38,216 bases of DNA from Sphingobacteriia bacterium (GCA_008080835.1 VMDK01000030.1:1-38216), one strand, 5' to 3'. Positions 23,377 through 36,237 are shown, counted from the first letter of the stretch. Made by a program: numbers and translations. Notes: generated by a model from the sequence alone, not told the origin.

Positions 23377-23486
23377 GCTATGAATCAGTCGTCTATGACT
23401 GAATCTCACATGGAAACTTCCCCTGCTTTACCCTAAATTCGTTTACTAAATCATACATTGCGGTATGTATGATCAAAAGCAGGATT

Positions 23487-24950
23487 ATGAAAAACTATAT
23501 TTCTACCCTCGTAATCTGCATGATGTTCGGAAGCCTTTCAGCCTCTGCTCAATCATTGCGAATCGTGTATGATCTCACCAAGGATGAGGTTGAATTTTAT
23601 CGCACGAAACCATCAGACACAGAAGGCAAACTGATTTCTCAGGCCATTGTAGGTCGGAACAAAATGGTCAAGCTGGAAGTGATCAATTTCAACAAGTTTG
23701 TCTATGCAGCGAATGCCACATTCGTTTCCAGTGAAGTGGAGACCAGTGACGGAGTCGATTTCTTCAATACGATCACCCCGTTGGTTTTACCAGGAACTTC
23801 GCAAGCATTTTTTAGCTCTCTAGGTGGAGACCTTCCGGATGATACTCGCGGAGGAGTCATGGCAACACGTGGTGCAAACTCGGCTTTTCACGATCTCCAA
23901 GAGGCATACACTACCTTGGCTAAATTGGAAAATGACGTTTCGAACCTCGATTATGCCATCAAGAGACTGAATGAACTCAAGTACAATCCTTTCTTGCCTG
24001 GAGATACGATCAAGAAAATGAGTGAACGCCTCGTTGATATGATCATGTCAACCCCTGGTGCCCAACCCGGAGACTTTGCTAATTTGGTGGTGTTGTACAA
24101 CGACCGTTACAACAAGGGTACGCAACAGCTGAGTACAGCAAGCAACCAATTCTTGTCGGCGTACAATAGCTACGCAAAGAACAGAGGTGATCAGGAATTT
24201 GAAGGCAAGGGATTAGACCAATATGCGCGAGGTGCACAGGAGAAATTGAATGCCTACACGAATGAGACAACGGTTCAGGATCTCACTGATAAGATCAATA
24301 CGTTAGAGAACATTTACACGTCGATCCAAATGAACACATTCGTCTTCAACTCCAGTCAAATGGCGAAAGATGATGAGATCGAGATCAAGCTGTTCATCTA
24401 CGAGAATCCTAAAGAAGGAGATGTCCCTGCCAACGCTGATCTCGGAAACCTGGATGTACTGACCAAGGTTAAAGAGAAGACATTCACAGTCACTGTAAAA
24501 GGTGATATGAAGATCAATAGCAGCATTGGAATGGGATTCCCATACTTTGAGTCAAACAATTCCTTCATCAACAAGGACAGTGTGATCACTACTCAACCCG
24601 GTAATAATTACTCTCCGAATCTTGCAGGATACATCAACTTCTACCCGTACTCCGGTCGTGTGGCCAATCTCGGTGGGACTTTCGGAGTGGGTGTTCCATT
24701 GACTGACAGAAACAGAAATTTGAACATATTCCTGGGTTTGTCAGGCTTGTTTGGAACAGATAATCGAATTGCTTTACATGGGGGGTTAACCCTCGGACAA
24801 GTGAAGTCATTGGATCAGGGATATCAGGTAGGTGATAAGCTTCTTTCTCCAATTCAGGAGGTGCCGGTGGTGAACACCTGGCAGTGGGGCGCCTTTGCCG
24901 GAATATCTTTCAGTCTGGCCAATTTGCAACAGCAATCTTCCGGCGACTGA
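23487..24950 (+). CDS. Exported two-part envelope protein: helical N-terminal half, beta-rich C-terminal half
   Basis: I do not recognise a family. The ATG at 23487 (MKNYISTLVICMMFGSLSASAQ) gives a signal peptide. Residues about 20-110 are beta-rich, and about 110-270 are helical with coiled-coil character (LEDVSN-like and YNDRYNKGTQQLSTASNQF). The last 150 residues look like membrane beta-strands (NLGGTFGVGVPLTDRNRNLNIFLGLSGLFG, WQWGAFAGISFSLAN). It probably sits in the outer membrane with a periplasmic part. An intrinsic terminator follows 33 bases after the stop. Length is 487 residues. Confidence 0.62.
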   Translation: MKNYISTLVICMMFGSLSASAQSLRIVYDLTKDEVEFYRTKPSDTEGKLISQAIVGRNKMVKLEVINFNKFVYAANATFVSSEVETSDGVDFFNTITPLVLPGTSQAFFSSLGGDLPDDTRGGVMATRGANSAFHDLQEAYTTLAKLENDVSNLDYAIKRLNELKYNPFLPGDTIKKMSERLVDMIMSTPGAQPGDFANLVVLYNDRYNKGTQQLSTASNQFLSAYNSYAKNRGDQEFEGKGLDQYARGAQEKLNAYTNETTVQDLTDKINTLENIYTSIQMNTFVFNSSQMAKDDEIEIKLFIYENPKEGDVPANADLGNLDVLTKVKEKTFTVTVKGDMKINSSIGMGFPYFESNNSFINKDSVITTQPGNNYSPNLAGYINFYPYSGRVANLGGTFGVGVPLTDRNRNLNIFLGLSGLFGTDNRIALHGGLTLGQVKSLDQGYQVGDKLLSPIQEVPVVNTWQWGAFAGISFSLANLQQQSSGD

Positions 24951-27301: not shown

Positions 27302-27363
27302 GCATCTGAATGATTAAATTTACCCTCGGCTCGTATCCTGAATTAATAGGAAAAGCAGGTATC

Positions 27364-29370
27364 ATGAAAACACGATTACTCAACAATTCAGGAAACAAAA
27401 AGCAAGCATCTTTTCGACTTGCAATGTTCTTTCTATTGGCACTGTTCACTGCAACTTCATTTGCCCAGAACAAATACGCCTTGATCGTAGCCATAGGTGA
27501 CTATCCCGAAGAAACGGATTGGAATGATATCTCTTCAGTGAACGATATTCCGCTCATTGAGCAGGCCTTGATCAAGCAAGGGTTCAACTCGAAGAACATT
27601 CGAGTGCTCAAAGACGCAGAAGCAGACAAGAAGTCCATACTTTTCGCATTTGACGATATGACTCAGGACCTTGATTCAGGAGATGTGGTTGTTGTTCACT
27701 TCTCGAGTCATGGTCAGCAGATCATCGATTACAATAACGACGAGATCGATGGTTACGACGAAGCCATCGTAGCATACGGTGCTCCCGCCATCTACGATCC
27801 ACTGTACAAAGGAGAGAATCATCTGCTCGATGAAGAGCTGGGATCTGCCTTGGAAGGAATTCGCAGGAAGATCACTAAAAAGGGAGACCTCCTGGTTTTT
27901 GTAGATGCATGTCACTCCGGCACGGCTACTCGTGGTGAGGCAAAACGTCGAGGAGGTAAAGCTCCATTTGCTCCTGAAGGGTATACCGGTAAGGAGGGCG
28001 ATTCCGACATTGGGATGTACGAAGTCAATGCCAAAAGCCGTGGAGCAGGAGATGACCTGGCACCGATGGTGGTAGTTTCTGCCTCAAGAGCCGAAGAAGT
28101 GAACTACGAATACAACGGATTCGGGTCATTGTCGGTTGCGATCAGCCGCAGCATGAGCCGTCTTCAGTCCGACATGTCGTACCGAAGTTTCTTCGCAGAG
28201 ATACTCAAGGAAATGTCCGTGATAGCTCCAAAACAATCGCCTGCAATAGAAGGAGACATCGATCGCGCGCTTTTCGGAGGTAAAGTGATCGAGCAGGAAC
28301 CATACTACACGATTTACAGGATCAGGAATGAGCGCCTCAACCTGAATGGAGGAGAGCTGAACGGACTGTTCGAAGGAACCGAGATCGCCATCTTTCCTGC
28401 AGGAACAGCAGACACTAAAGGTAAAGCACCAATTGCGACCGGAGAGATAATCAGTGCAGAAGGAACCTGGTCGAATGCCCGTTTGAACAAAGCGCTTGAA
28501 GGCAACAAATCTCAGTACTGGGTATTTGTCACCAAGCAAACCTTTGGCGACATCAGAGTGAAACTCAACATATCTGAAGTAGATGAGGTGATGAAGCAAA
28601 ATGTTCGCGACTGGGCACAAGGGTTCGAAATGGCCGAATTAGTTGAGCAAGGTGGTGAGTACATGCTGGGCATGAATATGAATGCCCGAAGTGCCGGTGT
28701 GAACTATGATGTTCATTTGAAAGATATCGCTACACTCGACGTGATCGAATCGTACAGAGGCCGCGGAAGCTTTGAAAAACTGGAGGAGTACCTGATCCAA
28801 AAGGCTCGAGGTGAGTACATGAAAAATCTCGAACTCGAAGATCCGGCTCTTGATGTGGAGTTTGAATTCATACCGGTTCGATTGGAAAGAGGGGAAGTAG
28901 TTGACACGCTCAGCATCGAAGAGATTTCAAATAACGGAATGATGGAGATCAGCGCCCGCAACATGGGTGTCTTTATCCGAATCATCAACAAGGGTAGTGA
29001 GACAGCTTATTTCAACATCATCGACATCCAGCCGGATGGAGTGATAAACGGAATATTGCCTGACCCGGATCAGAATCACAATGCTGCCGATTACAAGATA
29101 GAAGCGGGACAAGAGAGTTTCGTGATCAAGGACCGATTGATCGAATTCTTCCCACCTTATGGAACGGAAGTGTTCAAACTGTTCGCCACTTACGAACCGA
29201 TCGATTTCGGACCGATCATTACTCAAAGAGATACCAGAAGTAAAAAAACCGATCTGGAGATACTGTTTGGAGAAGCGTTTGACGTGAAGAAGCGCGGTGG
29301 AAAGTCTACTACTGTTCGCTCCGACATGCAGGCGAGCACTCACAGTGTGACTTTCAAGATCGTACCATAA
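27364..29370 (+). CDS. Exported caspase-like (C14) protease with DUF4384-like C-terminal region
   Basis: The ATG at 27364 begins MKTRLLNNSGNKK and a signal peptide (LAMFFLLALFTATSFAQ); the track start at 27310 is too early. The caspase fold follows: NKYALIVAIGDY, catalytic His116 in HFSSHGQQ and Cys183 in VDACHSG. An acidic loop after the His (NNDEIDGYDE) fits the family's preference for basic P1 residues. The last 200 residues (YFNIIDIQPDGVINGILPD, PPYGTEVFKLFAT) resemble DUF4384. Because it carries a signal peptide, it should act in the periplasm or outside, not as a cytoplasmic death protease. It is the first of three tightly packed protease genes (11-base gap to the next). Confidence 0.88.
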   Translation: MKTRLLNNSGNKKQASFRLAMFFLLALFTATSFAQNKYALIVAIGDYPEETDWNDISSVNDIPLIEQALIKQGFNSKNIRVLKDAEADKKSILFAFDDMTQDLDSGDVVVVHFSSHGQQIIDYNNDEIDGYDEAIVAYGAPAIYDPLYKGENHLLDEELGSALEGIRRKITKKGDLLVFVDACHSGTATRGEAKRRGGKAPFAPEGYTGKEGDSDIGMYEVNAKSRGAGDDLAPMVVVSASRAEEVNYEYNGFGSLSVAISRSMSRLQSDMSYRSFFAEILKEMSVIAPKQSPAIEGDIDRALFGGKVIEQEPYYTIYRIRNERLNLNGGELNGLFEGTEIAIFPAGTADTKGKAPIATGEIISAEGTWSNARLNKALEGNKSQYWVFVTKQTFGDIRVKLNISEVDEVMKQNVRDWAQGFEMAELVEQGGEYMLGMNMNARSAGVNYDVHLKDIATLDVIESYRGRGSFEKLEEYLIQKARGEYMKNLELEDPALDVEFEFIPVRLERGEVVDTLSIEEISNNGMMEISARNMGVFIRIINKGSETAYFNIIDIQPDGVINGILPDPDQNHNAADYKIEAGQESFVIKDRLIEFFPPYGTEVFKLFATYEPIDFGPIITQRDTRSKKTDLEILFGEAFDVKKRGGKSTTVRSDMQASTHSVTFKIVP

Positions 29371-29381
29371 ACTGAACCAAC

Positions 29382-30935
29382 ATGAAACCAATCATAAAAT
29401 ACATACGGCAAGTCAGGGTAGCAGGTATGCTGACAGTGCTGGCGATGTCGACCATTTCGCAAATGGCCATCGCTCAGAACCCATACGGGCATAAGGATTC
29501 TACTGTCAAATCCCGTAACGTCTTCGGAACGGACGATCGCAAATCGGCAGTGAACTATACTTACAAGGATTATACGAATGCCACGGCTGTGGCGGTGGAG
29601 AAGAGTAGCTTCGTCGGGAACTACCTGACCGGGAAAAGCCTCGGTGACAAACTACTCAGTCAGTACAAGCGCAAAGGGGCGGAGTACGTATCAAGTGAGA
29701 TCCGTTTTCAGGATGAACCGGCATTCGGCTTTTGCTCCGGCTTTTTGATCGCACCCGATATCCTGGTAACAGCGGGTCATTGCATCGACTACGACGATTA
29801 CTACTCGATGGAGTGGATCTTTGATTTTACGAACGACATTGAGTACAAACCGGGTGACAAGATCTACATCCCGCCGAGCAAGAGATACAATGTAAAGAAG
29901 ATACTGACCCGCCGCCTGACCTATTCAGACAGAAGGGACTATGCGGTCCTACAGCTAGACCGACCGGTTGATCGGAAACCTTTCACTTTCCGTACCGGTG
30001 AAACCCCAACTAAAGGATCGAAAGTGACATTGTTAGGAGCACCAAGCGGTATTCCGTTAAAGGTCGTGGAGGATGCCAAGATCACCTCGAACAATTCCTT
30101 TCAGGCGTACTTCCGCACTAATCTGGACGCGTTCGGAGGAAACTCCGGAGGTCCTGTTTTCAGCAGCACCGGATTGATCGAAGGGATCCTGGTTCGCGGT
30201 CCGACCAAAGGATACTACGTGGACGAGTCTTGTAAGTGTTTGAAAACGTCAACCTATACGGAATCATATGCTGACTTCATCCAGGGTGTGGAAGTTCAAA
30301 AGATCAATGATATCCCATGGAATGTCCTGTCGGAAGCTTTGTACAGCAACATCAACTACGCCATCGAGAGAAAAGACGAGGATGAATTGGATCGATGGGT
30401 GGATTACAGTTGGATATACAAGGAGCCGACCATTGCAGATAAGAAACCTCTGGAGATCGTGGCATTGGAATCCGGAAACATGAAGATCTTCAAAAAGGTC
30501 ATGGAATCAGGAGGTGATATGAATGCAGCTGACGGAGATGGCAAGACACTTATGAATCACATCATTCGAAAGAGAAATGATGAAGCATTGAAGTACCTGA
30601 TCCGAGAAGGATACGATGTCAATCAAAAAGATGAAAGAGAAGAAACACCTCTGTTCTGGGCCATCAACACCTATAACATTGAGCAAATGAAGGCCTTGAT
30701 CGACTACGGAGCCAGCGTCGACCTAAAGAATACCTGGGGTTCTACGCCGATCCATGAAGTTGCCGTGTACGGCAGTGTGGATATGGCCAAACTGTTGGTG
30801 GAGAATGGTGCGAACTTGCTTGCCAAGGATGCAGATGGGTGTTTGCCCAAACAAAGAGCGCGCAAATCGAAGAATAGATCTGTCAAGAAATACTTGAAAC
30901 AGGAAACTAAGAAACAGAAGAAAGCCGGGAAATGA
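29382..30935 (+). CDS. Exported trypsin/V8-like serine protease with C-terminal ankyrin repeats
   Basis: A signal peptide (MLTVLAMSTISQMAIAQ) precedes a chymotrypsin-fold protease domain of about 250 residues. The triad is His133 (TAGHC), Asp186 (RRDYAVLQL) and Ser255 (GGNSGGPV), and the Cys pair around the His matches a chymotrypsin disulfide. From about residue 345 follow three to four ankyrin repeats (DGDGKTLMNHIIRK, ETPLFWAINTYNIEQMKALIDYGASV, STPIHEVAVYGSVDMAKLLVENGA) and a basic tail. Ankyrin repeats bind proteins and may choose substrates. The 3' end overlaps the M28 gene by ATGA, so they are translationally coupled. Confidence 0.88.
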   Translation: MKPIIKYIRQVRVAGMLTVLAMSTISQMAIAQNPYGHKDSTVKSRNVFGTDDRKSAVNYTYKDYTNATAVAVEKSSFVGNYLTGKSLGDKLLSQYKRKGAEYVSSEIRFQDEPAFGFCSGFLIAPDILVTAGHCIDYDDYYSMEWIFDFTNDIEYKPGDKIYIPPSKRYNVKKILTRRLTYSDRRDYAVLQLDRPVDRKPFTFRTGETPTKGSKVTLLGAPSGIPLKVVEDAKITSNNSFQAYFRTNLDAFGGNSGGPVFSSTGLIEGILVRGPTKGYYVDESCKCLKTSTYTESYADFIQGVEVQKINDIPWNVLSEALYSNINYAIERKDEDELDRWVDYSWIYKEPTIADKKPLEIVALESGNMKIFKKVMESGGDMNAADGDGKTLMNHIIRKRNDEALKYLIREGYDVNQKDEREETPLFWAINTYNIEQMKALIDYGASVDLKNTWGSTPIHEVAVYGSVDMAKLLVENGANLLAKDADGCLPKQRARKSKNRSVKKYLKQETKKQKKAGK

Positions 30936-32236
30936 TCCAAGGAAACTTCAGGAAGAATATTCAGCAGCACGGTATCATCACTGTGCTGCTGCTTTTTATG
31001 TCAGTTTGTGCTTCTGCACAGGACAGACAGTATGCTCAAATGTGGATCGATAGCTTGGCCGGTCCCACCTTCCACGGCCGGGGATATACACAAAATGGTG
31101 CTCTCAAAGCAGCTGGCGTCATTGCTGCAGAAATGGAAAAGGTCGGCTTGTCCATGATTTCCGAAGAAAGAGGCTGGTTTCACAATTTCACCATGCCGGT
31201 CAACACCTTTCCGAACGATCTCACAGCAGTTGTGGGTAGCCGGGAATTGGAAGTAGGGAGGGATTATGTACCCGTTCCCGGAAGTGGCTCATTCTCGGGT
31301 AGTTCTCAACCGGTATTTCTGAGTATTTCAGATATCCGAAAAAAGGGAAAGGTGAAGAGCGCATTGAAGCAGACTCAACATTCCGGCATTCTGGTCATCG
31401 ACACATTCGACAGGAAGGATGAGAAGAGCGCGGAATGCTACGATCTCATTCAACGAACATTTTCAGGTGGTGCTATTGTGCTGCTTGCAACGGATCTAAC
31501 ATGGAGTGTTTCGCGAGCGCAAATGCCCTACTGCATGGTAAAAATGCGACCACAAGCCTTCCGGCTAAATGAACAAATGGCTTTGGAAATTGAACCACTG
31601 TTCATTGAGAAATACCAGGGTGCAAATTTGATTGGTTTCCTGCGGGGAAATGAACAACCTGACTCTTTCATTCTGCTCACCGGTCATTATGACCATTTGG
31701 GTGGAATGGGTCAAACCTACATTCCCGGTGCCAATGACAATGCCAGCGGGATCGCCATGATCCTGGACATGGCGAAAGAGTTCGCGGAGCAAAAGTCCAA
31801 TCGCTACAGCATCATCTTCATTGGTTTTGGAGGAGAAGAAGCGGGCCTGGTTGGTAGCCATCACTTTGTGAATGAACTCTCCGATTGGATCCCTGCCGAT
31901 AAGATCCGATTTGTAGTGAATATGGATTTGATGGGTTCCGGACAGGAAGGTATAATGGCGGTGAATGGAAGGGTCTTCACTGACGAATTCGACATGCTCA
32001 AAGATCTGAACGACAACAAGGGTTACCTTACCGATGTTCGCGCTCGAGGGAAAGCTGCCAACAGCGATCATTACTTCTTTTCAGAACGCGGAATTCCGGC
32101 TTTCTTCTTCTATCTGATGGGCCCATATCATCATTATCACAACGTGAATGACAGTCCCGAGAATTTGAGACTGGACGAGCACTACGATAAGTCGTTCAGA
32201 TTGATCAGAGACTTCATCGGCAAACTCCAGAAATAG
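30932..32236 (+). CDS. Exported M28 family zinc aminopeptidase
   Basis: A signal peptide (TVLLLFMSVCASAQ) leads to a 434-residue peptidase. Zinc ligands of M28 are clear: His252 in TGHYDHLG, Asp269 in GANDNASG, the Glu pair in GFGGEEAGL, Asp in NMDLMG and the C-terminal His in YHNVNDSPEN. M28 enzymes release N-terminal amino acids from peptides, so it could finish digestion of fragments cut by the two upstream endopeptidases. The start overlaps the trypsin-ankyrin stop by 4 bases. The signal-peptide codons contain a terminator-like hairpin. The stop is TAG. Confidence 0.9.
   Translation: MIQGNFRKNIQQHGIITVLLLFMSVCASAQDRQYAQMWIDSLAGPTFHGRGYTQNGALKAAGVIAAEMEKVGLSMISEERGWFHNFTMPVNTFPNDLTAVVGSRELEVGRDYVPVPGSGSFSGSSQPVFLSISDIRKKGKVKSALKQTQHSGILVIDTFDRKDEKSAECYDLIQRTFSGGAIVLLATDLTWSVSRAQMPYCMVKMRPQAFRLNEQMALEIEPLFIEKYQGANLIGFLRGNEQPDSFILLTGHYDHLGGMGQTYIPGANDNASGIAMILDMAKEFAEQKSNRYSIIFIGFGGEEAGLVGSHHFVNELSDWIPADKIRFVVNMDLMGSGQEGIMAVNGRVFTDEFDMLKDLNDNKGYLTDVRARGKAANSDHYFFSERGIPAFFFYLMGPYHHYHNVNDSPENLRLDEHYDKSFRLIRDFIGKLQK
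30962..30997 (+). terminator. Terminator-like hairpin inside the M28 signal-peptide codons
   Basis: CAGCAGCACGGT and ACTGTGCTGCTG form a 12-bp stem (one G-U pair) with a 6-base loop, followed one C later by TTTTT. It lies 30 bases into the M28 gene. It could act as an attenuator that is opened by translating ribosomes, or be a by-product of Leu/Val codon use. Confidence 0.45.
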
Positions 32237-33813: not shown

Positions 33814-35262
33814 TTATGAAAAGAACTCTTTGCACAGGTCGTAAATGAGATTGGAGAGAATGAATAGCAGGATGGAACCGAGCAACAATCCCATGGGCCA
33901 GGCATTACCCTTGGAACTGTCATTTTTTTTCTGATTGCCATCTTTGATCATTCTCCCCGCTTTCTCATCGATCCTTCCGGATCCGTCGCTGACGTATTTC
34001 GTGTATTTGGAGACGTTCCAATCTGTGAGTGCAGCCAGTTCGCTGAGCTCCTTGGTTCGTCTGTTCGTAAGATTCTCTTTGTATTTAACTCCTGCATCGC
34101 AACTCAGATCTCCGGTGGCAGGATGATGCATGACATATCGTCCCTGGAACCTGGAACGGTCTGAGGTTTCAAGGAAGAACAGATCCTGAGGGAAATCCTC
34201 TTCCGCGTATCGAACGTGTAAACGGGTAAAGAACACAGAGCTGTAATTATTGTCATTGACCCACCAAACACCTGCTTGCTTCAGATCTTCTACAATTGGA
34301 GGCGGCCCCACACACGGGTCACACTTCACGCCACCGAAGCCCGGACTCACGTCCCAAGCGTATTCTGTGAACACCGTATTCTTTCCGGCTTTGTGATATG
34401 ATTTGTCGAATAAGTCTACATAGAATTGCTGGAACTTATCGCCTTTCAGGAATGTAGGGATGTCTCTGTTGCTTGGGATGGGAATGGTTCTGTAATTGGC
34501 AGACTCAATGCGTCCACCTTTGGTAAATGCATAGATGATCATGTCCTGAGCACCGTTACTATTGGCCATACCCAGACGGATCGGCAGCATGAATTTTTCC
34601 GATTCGAATTCGATCTGAAGTGGTCTGAGGTTGGTGAATCCAAGAAGGTCTTTCACGTTGGTGTTTACCTTGACCACAAAGAATTTCAGGTTGTTCTTGA
34701 TGTATGGCTCCAACACACGCTCAGCTTGCGCAGGAATGGAATAACCGTTATCGGTCAGCCATCTTTTCAGACCATCCGATTCTGCAGCGCTCAAGATCAC
34801 GATGTCGTACTCTCCCACGGTATAGCTCGCTTCGATCTGAACGTGGTAATCCTCTTCCGCTTCCATGGCCATGGATTTGCGTTTCACACGCCCACGTCTG
34901 CTGGTATTGGCCACGGCAACTTCATACAAGATCCGAGGTTCACAAGGATTTTCATCATAGTACTCTACCAGTCTGGGGCCACTGTAGGAATCGAATTTGT
35001 CGAACAAAACTTGATTGGCGATCCGGATATCCTCGCGATCGATCACTTCGGGAACAGGGATCACCATGGCGAATTCGCTGGCACTTCCGTTATAGTCGTT
35101 GCTCATCGTGATGACGCTGCGATTCCCGTCGCGCACGAAGATCACCTGACTCCTGTTATTGAATAGTTCTGCTCCCGCTTTCGCGACATAGAATCCGCAA
35201 AATGCTGAGGTGTCGGCTACAAAGGAGCTAACGGCAATGAGGATGGTCAAGATCTTTTTCAT
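33814..35262 (-). CDS. DUF2330 family exported, C-terminally anchored protein
   Basis: The 482-residue protein starts with a signal peptide (ILTILIAVSSFVADTSAFCGFYV), where FCGFYV marks the start of the DUF2330 domain. Further family features are FAMVIPVP, the ESDGLKRWLTDNGYSIP segment and the KCDPCVGPPP Cys pair. A charged segment (NQKKNDSSKG) leads to a C-terminal membrane helix (MGLLLGSILLFILSNLIYDL), so most of the protein faces the periplasm. Function is unknown. The ATG overlaps the TGA of the RnfD-like gene by 4 bases (ATGA), which ties the two together. Confidence 0.88.
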   Translation of the reverse strand: MKKILTILIAVSSFVADTSAFCGFYVAKAGAELFNNRSQVIFVRDGNRSVITMSNDYNGSASEFAMVIPVPEVIDREDIRIANQVLFDKFDSYSGPRLVEYYDENPCEPRILYEVAVANTSRRGRVKRKSMAMEAEEDYHVQIEASYTVGEYDIVILSAAESDGLKRWLTDNGYSIPAQAERVLEPYIKNNLKFFVVKVNTNVKDLLGFTNLRPLQIEFESEKFMLPIRLGMANSNGAQDMIIYAFTKGGRIESANYRTIPIPSNRDIPTFLKGDKFQQFYVDLFDKSYHKAGKNTVFTEYAWDVSPGFGGVKCDPCVGPPPIVEDLKQAGVWWVNDNNYSSVFFTRLHVRYAEEDFPQDLFFLETSDRSRFQGRYVMHHPATGDLSCDAGVKYKENLTNRRTKELSELAALTDWNVSKYTKYVSDGSGRIDEKAGRMIKDGNQKKNDSSKGNAWPMGLLLGSILLFILSNLIYDLCKEFFS

Positions 35263-36128
35263 GTGTGTTGGATTTTAAGTGGTTCAAAGGATTGAGATAT
35301 TTCTTTTCTGGCTGACCGGCTACGGTCTTGGAACCATTGGTATTTTTTCGATGGGAATATTCGGTCAAGCACAGGCAAAAGTGGTGCACCTGCAAGTAGT
35401 ATCCACATGGCTGCGGTGTGGATCGCGAAGCTCTTTCCTATGGTGAATGTGAGGATGGCGATCGAAGCGGCCCAGACGATCCGGACAGATCTCCGATTGG
35501 GGATGGTCATAGGGTCGGTGATCATGAAAAATGAGAAGAGCAGGAGTGCTCCGTTTGTCATTTTGTGCAGGACAAAGTCAAAATCCCAACCGAGATACAA
35601 CAGGTCATATCCGATGGAAATGCAGAAATAGGTCAACAGGAATGTAAGTCCTGTTTCCAGTCTGCTGATTCGAAGTAGTATCATGAGTCCGGCTGCTCCA
35701 AAAAAGAATAGAAGAGCCATGTCGCTTCCCCATTGTCCCGGACTGATCCAGGTTTTGTCTGTGATGAGCAGTGGCACCATCACCCCGAAGTTGGCTGGGT
35801 TAAAAATATGTTTATTCCGGTGTCGGATCAGGAACTTGCTTCCTATTGCCAGAACACCTGCCAATATGAAATATGGGATCTCTCCGGCCTTGAATAACAG
35901 ACAAAGTCCCAAAGAAGTGATCAATGCACTCCGAAGCGAATGAAGTGGTAATTTCAGGATCAGGATCCCCAGAGACTGGACCACCAGACATGTGGTGATC
36001 AATGTCAAGTAATGACTCATATTCCCTTCCCATCCAAGAGCGAATACCCCATAGGTGAGGAATGAGCTCAGAAAAACGATCTGAAAATATCTGGGATCTT
36101 TGATGAATCCGGAAATACGCTTGATCAT
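35259..36128 (-). CDS. RnfD/NqrB-like polytopic membrane protein, without other Rnf/Nqr genes
   Basis: The 289-residue protein (start chosen at MIKRISGFIKDPRYFQ; the track begins 7 codons earlier) has about eight hydrophobic helices and resembles the NQR2/RnfD/RnfE family. It includes NKHIFNPANFGVMVPLL and the MTNGALLLFSFFMITDP segment. The TNGALLLFSFFM stretch is near where RnfD/NqrB carry a covalently bound flavin on Thr (SGAT-type), but the exact acceptor motif is altered here. No rnfA, B, C, E or G or nqr gene is in the window. It is coupled to the DUF2330 gene by an ATGA overlap. Confidence 0.75.
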   Translation of the reverse strand: MIKRISGFIKDPRYFQIVFLSSFLTYGVFALGWEGNMSHYLTLITTCLVVQSLGILILKLPLHSLRSALITSLGLCLLFKAGEIPYFILAGVLAIGSKFLIRHRNKHIFNPANFGVMVPLLITDKTWISPGQWGSDMALLFFFGAAGLMILLRISRLETGLTFLLTYFCISIGYDLLYLGWDFDFVLHKMTNGALLLFSFFMITDPMTIPNRRSVRIVWAASIAILTFTIGKSFAIHTAAMWILLAGAPLLPVLDRIFPSKKYQWFQDRSRSARKEISQSFEPLKIQHT

Positions 36129-36237
36129 ATGCGGTGTTGTGCTTGGCATACGGCTTTCTATACCTTCAGTACAGAGATGGTAAATGCCGTTCTTAATTTT
36201 TTTCTGAAGCTACTGAACTGCCCTATGGATGAGCAGT

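Follow-up and report, generated by a model that had tools for sequence, protein, structure and literature searches.

Bacterial relatives of caspases are abundant, and members of the group that include exported ones, as well as caspase and trypsin defence systems, have already been described (PMC3501461, PMC7159879, PMC12799240), with the substrates of the exported members not given in the literature searched. C14B orthocaspases cut after basic residues, and in Rhizobiales a trypsin, a QC pseudo-orthocaspase and DUF4384 are fused in one chain (PMC6426788). Caspases and trypsins are also carried by NTP-dependent conflict systems (PMC7159879) and by caspase-nuclease (canu) or trypsin-nuclease defence pairs (PMC12799240). 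In the literature searched, whose coverage left out most subscription journals, no description was found of an exported caspase-trypsin set of Bacteroidota, the subject of this report, or of the motif shared by its members.

The locus lies in a window of 38,216 nucleotides (the whole stretch of DNA analysed, GCA_008080835.1 VMDK01000030.1:1-38216) from a Sphingobacteriia bacterium and carries three protease genes in a row on the plus strand, the products of which are all predicted to be exported. The first gene (27364-29370) encodes a caspase-like (C14) protease of 668 amino acids with a normal signal peptide, and an alternative ATG at 27310 would add 18 amino acids. Peptidase_C14 was recognised by Pfam at 6.8e-17 (62.4 bits against a cut-off of 21.4). 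The C-terminal domain is DUF4384-like, scoring 0.019 and 15.5 bits in the window protein, below the Pfam cut-off of 27, and 9.5e-6 and 26.1 bits against the same cut-off in the relative L076. The second gene (29382-30935) encodes a Trypsin_2 protease (6.2e-16) with C-terminal ankyrin repeats (Ank_2, 1.2e-18), and the third (30932-32236) an M28 aminopeptidase (Peptidase_M28, 4.4e-38, 131.4 bits) with the zinc-ligand motifs HYDHL (252), GANDNASG (266), GGEEAG (300), NMDLMG (330) and HHYHN (400). The sequence-only reading had described three intact open reading frames, the first two separated by 11 bases (29371-29381) and the last two overlapping by four (ATGA, 30932-30935), with catalytic residues in all three, and each of these points was confirmed.

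The window caspase shares with the C14B orthocaspases and metacaspases the fold, the His-Cys dyad (His116/Cys183) and an acidic pocket expected for Arg or Lys. The closest solved folds to its AF2 model (pLDDT 83.5) were GSU0716 (3bij) and plant metacaspases (Foldseek probability 1.00), and H116, C183, D122, D129, D132 and E133 were all invariant among 61 caspase sequences. Judged from sequence, the acidic S1 pocket (D122, D129, D132, E133) predicts cutting after Arg (or Lys). The window caspase differs from this group in its predicted export, its DUF4384-like C-terminus, the conserved Arg-Gly sites in its flexible loops and the separate gene for the trypsin. The Rhizobiales fusions contain the same three domain types, which supports a functional tie among them; whereas those domains are fused and the caspase is a pseudoenzyme, the genes in Bacteroidota are separate, their products appear to be exported and the caspase dyad is intact. 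An assignment to the EACC1-associated caspases (NF047832) was rejected, as the window caspase scored 23.8 bits against a curated cut-off of 140.

In the trypsin-ankyrin protein (AF2 model pLDDT 81.2), alignments showed that the triad H133/D186/S255 is invariant in the family and that the GNSGGP motif is present. The closest solved relative of the trypsin domain by profile was a glutamyl endopeptidase (1p3c, 1.7e-7), and the best matches listed by Foldseek for the whole model were ankyrin proteins only, mostly designed. In the glutamyl endopeptidase/V8-like group, activation through removal of a pro-segment is established. The window protein differs from these enzymes by its ankyrin repeats and by the near-invariant Asp249, six residues ahead of Ser255, at the place of trypsin Asp189, which gives the preference for Arg or Lys; a different specificity is expected. 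A zymogen of the classical trypsinogen type (Ile16-Asp194) is not expected, the residue preceding Ser255 being Asn254. The segment RGVFGxDDR presumably resembles the mature N-termini of glutamyl endopeptidases, a likeness that was not counted as evidence, and a comparison of this N-terminal motif with solved glutamyl endopeptidases returned nothing useful with the 31-residue query. At four other loci (L104, L105, L106 and L086), two to three tandem trypsin-ankyrin copies were observed with variable ankyrin parts, which suggests that the targeting part is diversifying.

To define which genes belong together, genomes were searched with each protein and the loci were read, with 38 genomes in the family and 108 in the order. 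Among the 108 genomes, trypsin-ankyrin genes were found in 15, caspase genes in 22 and both in 14 (Fisher p=3e-11, a value that overstates independence because related genomes are counted in the cells). The two genes were adjacent, or had a second caspase gene between them, in all examined genomes having both except G010 and G033, in which the set is divided by contig ends. With a caspase in 14 of the 15 trypsin-ankyrin genomes, and the pair kept side by side among proteins only about 35-50% identical, the caspase and trypsin part of the three-protease unit proposed by the sequence-only reading stood. A trypsin-ankyrin gene without a caspase was found in G074, a genome that is 85% complete. 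The caspase adjoins the trypsin in G001, G017 and G024, where M28 is absent or elsewhere, and in a second family (G059, G062 and G070) it precedes a tandem array of two or three trypsin-ankyrin genes. Caspases without an ankyrin-trypsin usually adjoin a different trypsin, as in genus g3 and in G063 and G064, where the neighbour is an HtrA-like Trypsin_2 gene without ankyrins.

The M28 part of the proposed unit largely fell. M28 is present in 35 of the 38 family genomes, mostly away from the caspase and trypsin genes. Apart from the window genome, only genera g9 and g10 have it together with the pair, in the order caspase, second caspase, trypsin-ankyrin and M28. In genera g7 and g8 its neighbour is a GH3 gene, and neither protease of the pair is found in the vicinity. 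The three-protease operon as a single conserved unit was thus rejected, and since M28 is nearly universal in the family and mostly located elsewhere, the core is the caspase and the trypsin, and M28, despite its translational coupling in the window, is probably a bystander. These results also bear on the improbable explanation that the locus encodes secreted proteases for nutrient peptides, which are chance neighbours or loosely co-regulated, with M28 trimming the products as in the cascade of the sequence-only reading. The coupling of M28 to the trypsin through the ATGA overlap, and its place behind that gene in g9 and g10, would fit such housekeeping, but the caspase-trypsin linkage holds at low identity where that of M28 does not, and nutrient proteases need no conserved pro-segment motifs, pseudo-caspase or non-enzymatic partners.

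Several loci of other genomes showed variations on the pair. In all six genomes of g9 and g10, a second caspase-like gene encoding about 350 amino acids lies between the active caspase and the trypsin (L076:8890-9936, L077:8375-9445, L078:8023-9093, L079:9895-10953, L080:8702-9766 and L082:13-1083). Its catalytic Cys is replaced by Gly in 6/6 and its His by Asn in one, making it a conserved pseudo-caspase that is perhaps a regulator. In G005, neither the caspase (8 in-frame stops) nor the HtrA-like trypsin beside it is intact (L121:5395-8425), as would be expected if the two work together. Near the caspase and trypsin genes of the second family, the place of M28 in the window is taken by an M61-type aminopeptidase gene, identified by Pfam in L106 (2829-4601) and by eye in L107 (5196-6986) and L105 (13451-15307).

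The search was extended across Bacteroidota with a profile built from the caspase alignment, which found more than 500 relatives on genome contigs, the best of them mostly from Bacteroidota, including cultured genera; the analysis of loci covers the best 79 of these. A motif search found a trypsin-like gene nearby, of the ankyrin or HtrA-like type, in about 30 of the 79 loci, and many caspase-DUF4384 genes of Bacteroidota have a trypsin-like gene at most three genes away. Recurrent neighbours of the caspase were large WD40, CHAT/TPR and caspase proteins, a family of about 490 amino acids, a family of about 148 amino acids that was not detected in the window genome, and trypsins of both the HtrA-like and the ankyrin type.

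A gene of the window at 23469-24950 (plus strand) belongs to the 490-amino-acid family. Its unannotated product (493 amino acids, predicted to be exported) has no Pfam match and is homologous to neighbours of the caspase in 22 Bacteroidota loci and in genus g9 (phmmer, 1e-23 to 1e-157); in Winogradskyella and Leeuwenhoekiella, among others, the gene of a relative adjoins that of the caspase. Its C-terminal region is glycine-rich and by eye resembles a beta-barrel. In the window, the gene is located upstream of the caspase with one glycosyltransferase gene between. The family occurs in 14 of the 108 order genomes, 13 of them shared with the trypsin-ankyrin gene (Fisher p=7e-14), often at a distance from that gene despite the co-occurrence. 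The 23469 gene is a better third partner than M28 in the caspase and trypsin system.

The evidence for export is of several kinds. The N-termini of the caspase, trypsin and M28 proteins look like signal peptides, ending in ..SFAQ, ..AIAQ and ..ASAQ, as assessed by eye and with a crude script, by which the window's own trypsin scores slightly below the threshold. Among relatives, the script called signal peptides in 72 of 79 caspases and in 16 of 16 trypsins, which supports the export that had been proposed from the window, although, with a positive call for 38% of the whole protein set of the genome sample, it is weak evidence alone. In addition, an invariant pair, Cys118 and Cys134, flanks His133 of the trypsin at the position of the 42-58 disulphide of trypsin, which fits an oxidising compartment for the trypsin-ankyrin protein. 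For type IX secretion, no match to a C-terminal sorting domain was found in NCBIfam up to 1e-3.

Export also bears on whether the locus is an anti-phage or cell-death system akin to the bacterial caspase and trypsin defence modules, which we consider very improbable. Caspase, trypsin, CHAT-TPR and alpha/beta-hydrolase genes do occur together in Winogradskyella, as in the cytoplasmic conflict systems (PMC7159879), and in those systems and the nuclease pairs (PMC12799240) a protease of the caspase or trypsin family is likewise paired with genes thought or shown to be activated by it. However, those systems, described as immune, carry NTPases or nucleases, whereas the proteins here have signal peptides, and the scanned neighbouring genes contained no NTPase, sensor, gasdermin, nuclease or other effector or effector-associated domain. 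PADLOC reported no defence system, its matches being generic ankyrin, trypsin and caspase ones, so the defence or death comparison drawn in the sequence-only reading found no support.

One short motif, [ST]RG, recurs in five non-homologous families, namely the caspase, the trypsin-ankyrin protein, the 23469 family and two other families of neighbours. Based on residue shuffles, its ratio of observed to expected sites is 13.2 in the 79 caspases and 4.5 in operon neighbours, as against 1.26 in the remaining genes of these loci; the ratios of [ST]KG, [ST]RA and [DE]RG are below 2 everywhere, and that of [AV]RG in the caspases is 3.0. Among 4,000 tripeptide classes, [ST]RG ranked first over five non-homologous families (minimum log2 2.06, the next 0.58), one of which, a 301-amino-acid lipoprotein-like family, entered the ranking after its motif had been seen; with six families picked by recurrence alone, it still had both the highest median and the highest sum. 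A count restricted to a single member of each gene family gave a density of 0.51 per 1000 amino acids in operon families against 0.35, a small excess because most operon members are bystanders and the signal is concentrated in a few recurrent families. The background in the window genome is 0.31 per 1000 amino acids in a sample of 60 stretches (about half of the genome), in which only 10 of 979 proteins have at least two sites, the caspase and the 23469 protein being among those 10. The 23469 protein has two sites (TRGGVMATRGA), and Arg134-Gly135 is 96% conserved in its family. At the Winogradskyella thalassocola locus (L130), the motif is present in each of a run of six genes, from the trypsin to the TPR caspase, and absent from the displayed genes that flank the run. 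The M28 protein has no [ST]RG site.

The location of the motif is also distinctive. In the caspases, the sites align mainly at 190, 196, 226, 442, 465, 622, 625 and 644, and R190, R196, R226 and R644 of the window protein lie in or beside flexible segments, the internal segments of the AF2 model with pLDDT <50 being 185-192, 215-228, 623-627 and 640-654. In total, 79% of the caspase sites are in or next to low-pLDDT segments that make up about 6% of residues, a placement that is partly expected from the preference of S, T, R and G for flexible loops. The intersubunit loop behind the catalytic Cys, a common place of processing in caspase-fold proteases, contains R190-G191 and R196-G197. In the trypsin family, the alignment showed an invariant Arg45 between the signal peptide and the protease domain, in the context [ST]R-G in most relatives and SR-N in the window. 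[ST]RG looks like a cutting site of a protease, which suggests an extracytoplasmic protein-cutting system that has not been described.

The same observations could be read in a second way, with [ST]RG as a tag for recognition, docking or sorting by an unrelated envelope factor and its bearers held in a surface complex. Non-homologous exported proteins that include putative lipoproteins and the barrel-like family do share the motif, as a tag would require, yet its positions after the catalytic Cys of the caspase and before the trypsin domain are the usual ones for processing, and Arg is the expected P1 residue for this class of protease; we hold the tag reading to be rather unlikely. If the motif is cut, the trypsin partner might be the enzyme that cuts the sites or matures them in trans, with the caspase its substrate and not its activator. 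Asp249 at the Asp189 position would suit such an enzyme, but all 79 caspases have [ST]RG, many of them without a trypsin-like gene within six genes (for example L189). Moreover, the HtrA-like trypsin partners have [ST]RG in 6% only and carry a different motif, [LM]G[FMVY]RG, near residue 53, so that [ST]RG follows the caspase. We regard the trypsin as a doubtful candidate for the cutter, though a slightly stronger contender than the tag, and we infer that the caspase, favoured by the presence of the motif even where no trypsin is nearby, would do the cutting.

The window may accordingly carry a variant of an exported proteolytic system that would be widespread in Bacteroidota, with a core of a DUF4384-like caspase, a trypsin-like protease (with ankyrin repeats here) and exported partners including the product of the 23469 gene. 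Once exported, the caspase would cut at Ser/Thr-Arg|Gly: in itself, in the flexible loop right after the catalytic Cys and in the C-terminal tail, and in partners including the trypsin, whose pro-segment would be cut at Arg45 (Arg-Asn in this genome). The trypsin would be matured in this way, and its ankyrin repeats might then keep it on a target or partner. The system might have a role in envelope remodelling, maturation or defence. The presence of [ST]RG ahead of the trypsin domain gives a concrete form to the cascade of exported proteases suggested in the sequence-only reading. We consider it about as likely as not that an exported caspase specific for Arg performs its own maturation and that of its partners, the trypsin among them, at [ST]R|G. 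The fuller scheme, in which an extracytoplasmic initiator caspase matures a co-exported trypsin zymogen and surface proteins through an [ST]R|G code, with a dead-caspase regulator in some lineages, is put forward only tentatively. If true, it would be a bacterial extracytoplasmic counterpart of protease cascades built on the activation of one enzyme by the next. A motif common to the caspase and to unrelated neighbours points to substrates and to the exact bond, and the function of an exported caspase is thus directly testable in cultured Winogradskyella, Leeuwenhoekiella and Spirosoma.

Three further observations were made at the loci read. In Winogradskyella thalassocola (L130:3513-16995), one operon encodes an exported trypsin, an alpha/beta hydrolase (DUF900), a 490-amino-acid protein, a caspase, a CHAT-TPR protein and a TPR-caspase. 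Elsewhere, these types of domain are known from conflict systems of the cytoplasm. In Leeuwenhoekiella blandensis, an RHS-repeat/DUF6531 protein with two [ST]RG sites is encoded downstream of the caspase set (L137:15447-17129). In the window itself, a DUF2330 gene overlaps by 4 bases the gene of an NQR2/RnfD-like membrane protein (33814-36149), and this pair, followed by uvrB, is kept in G037.
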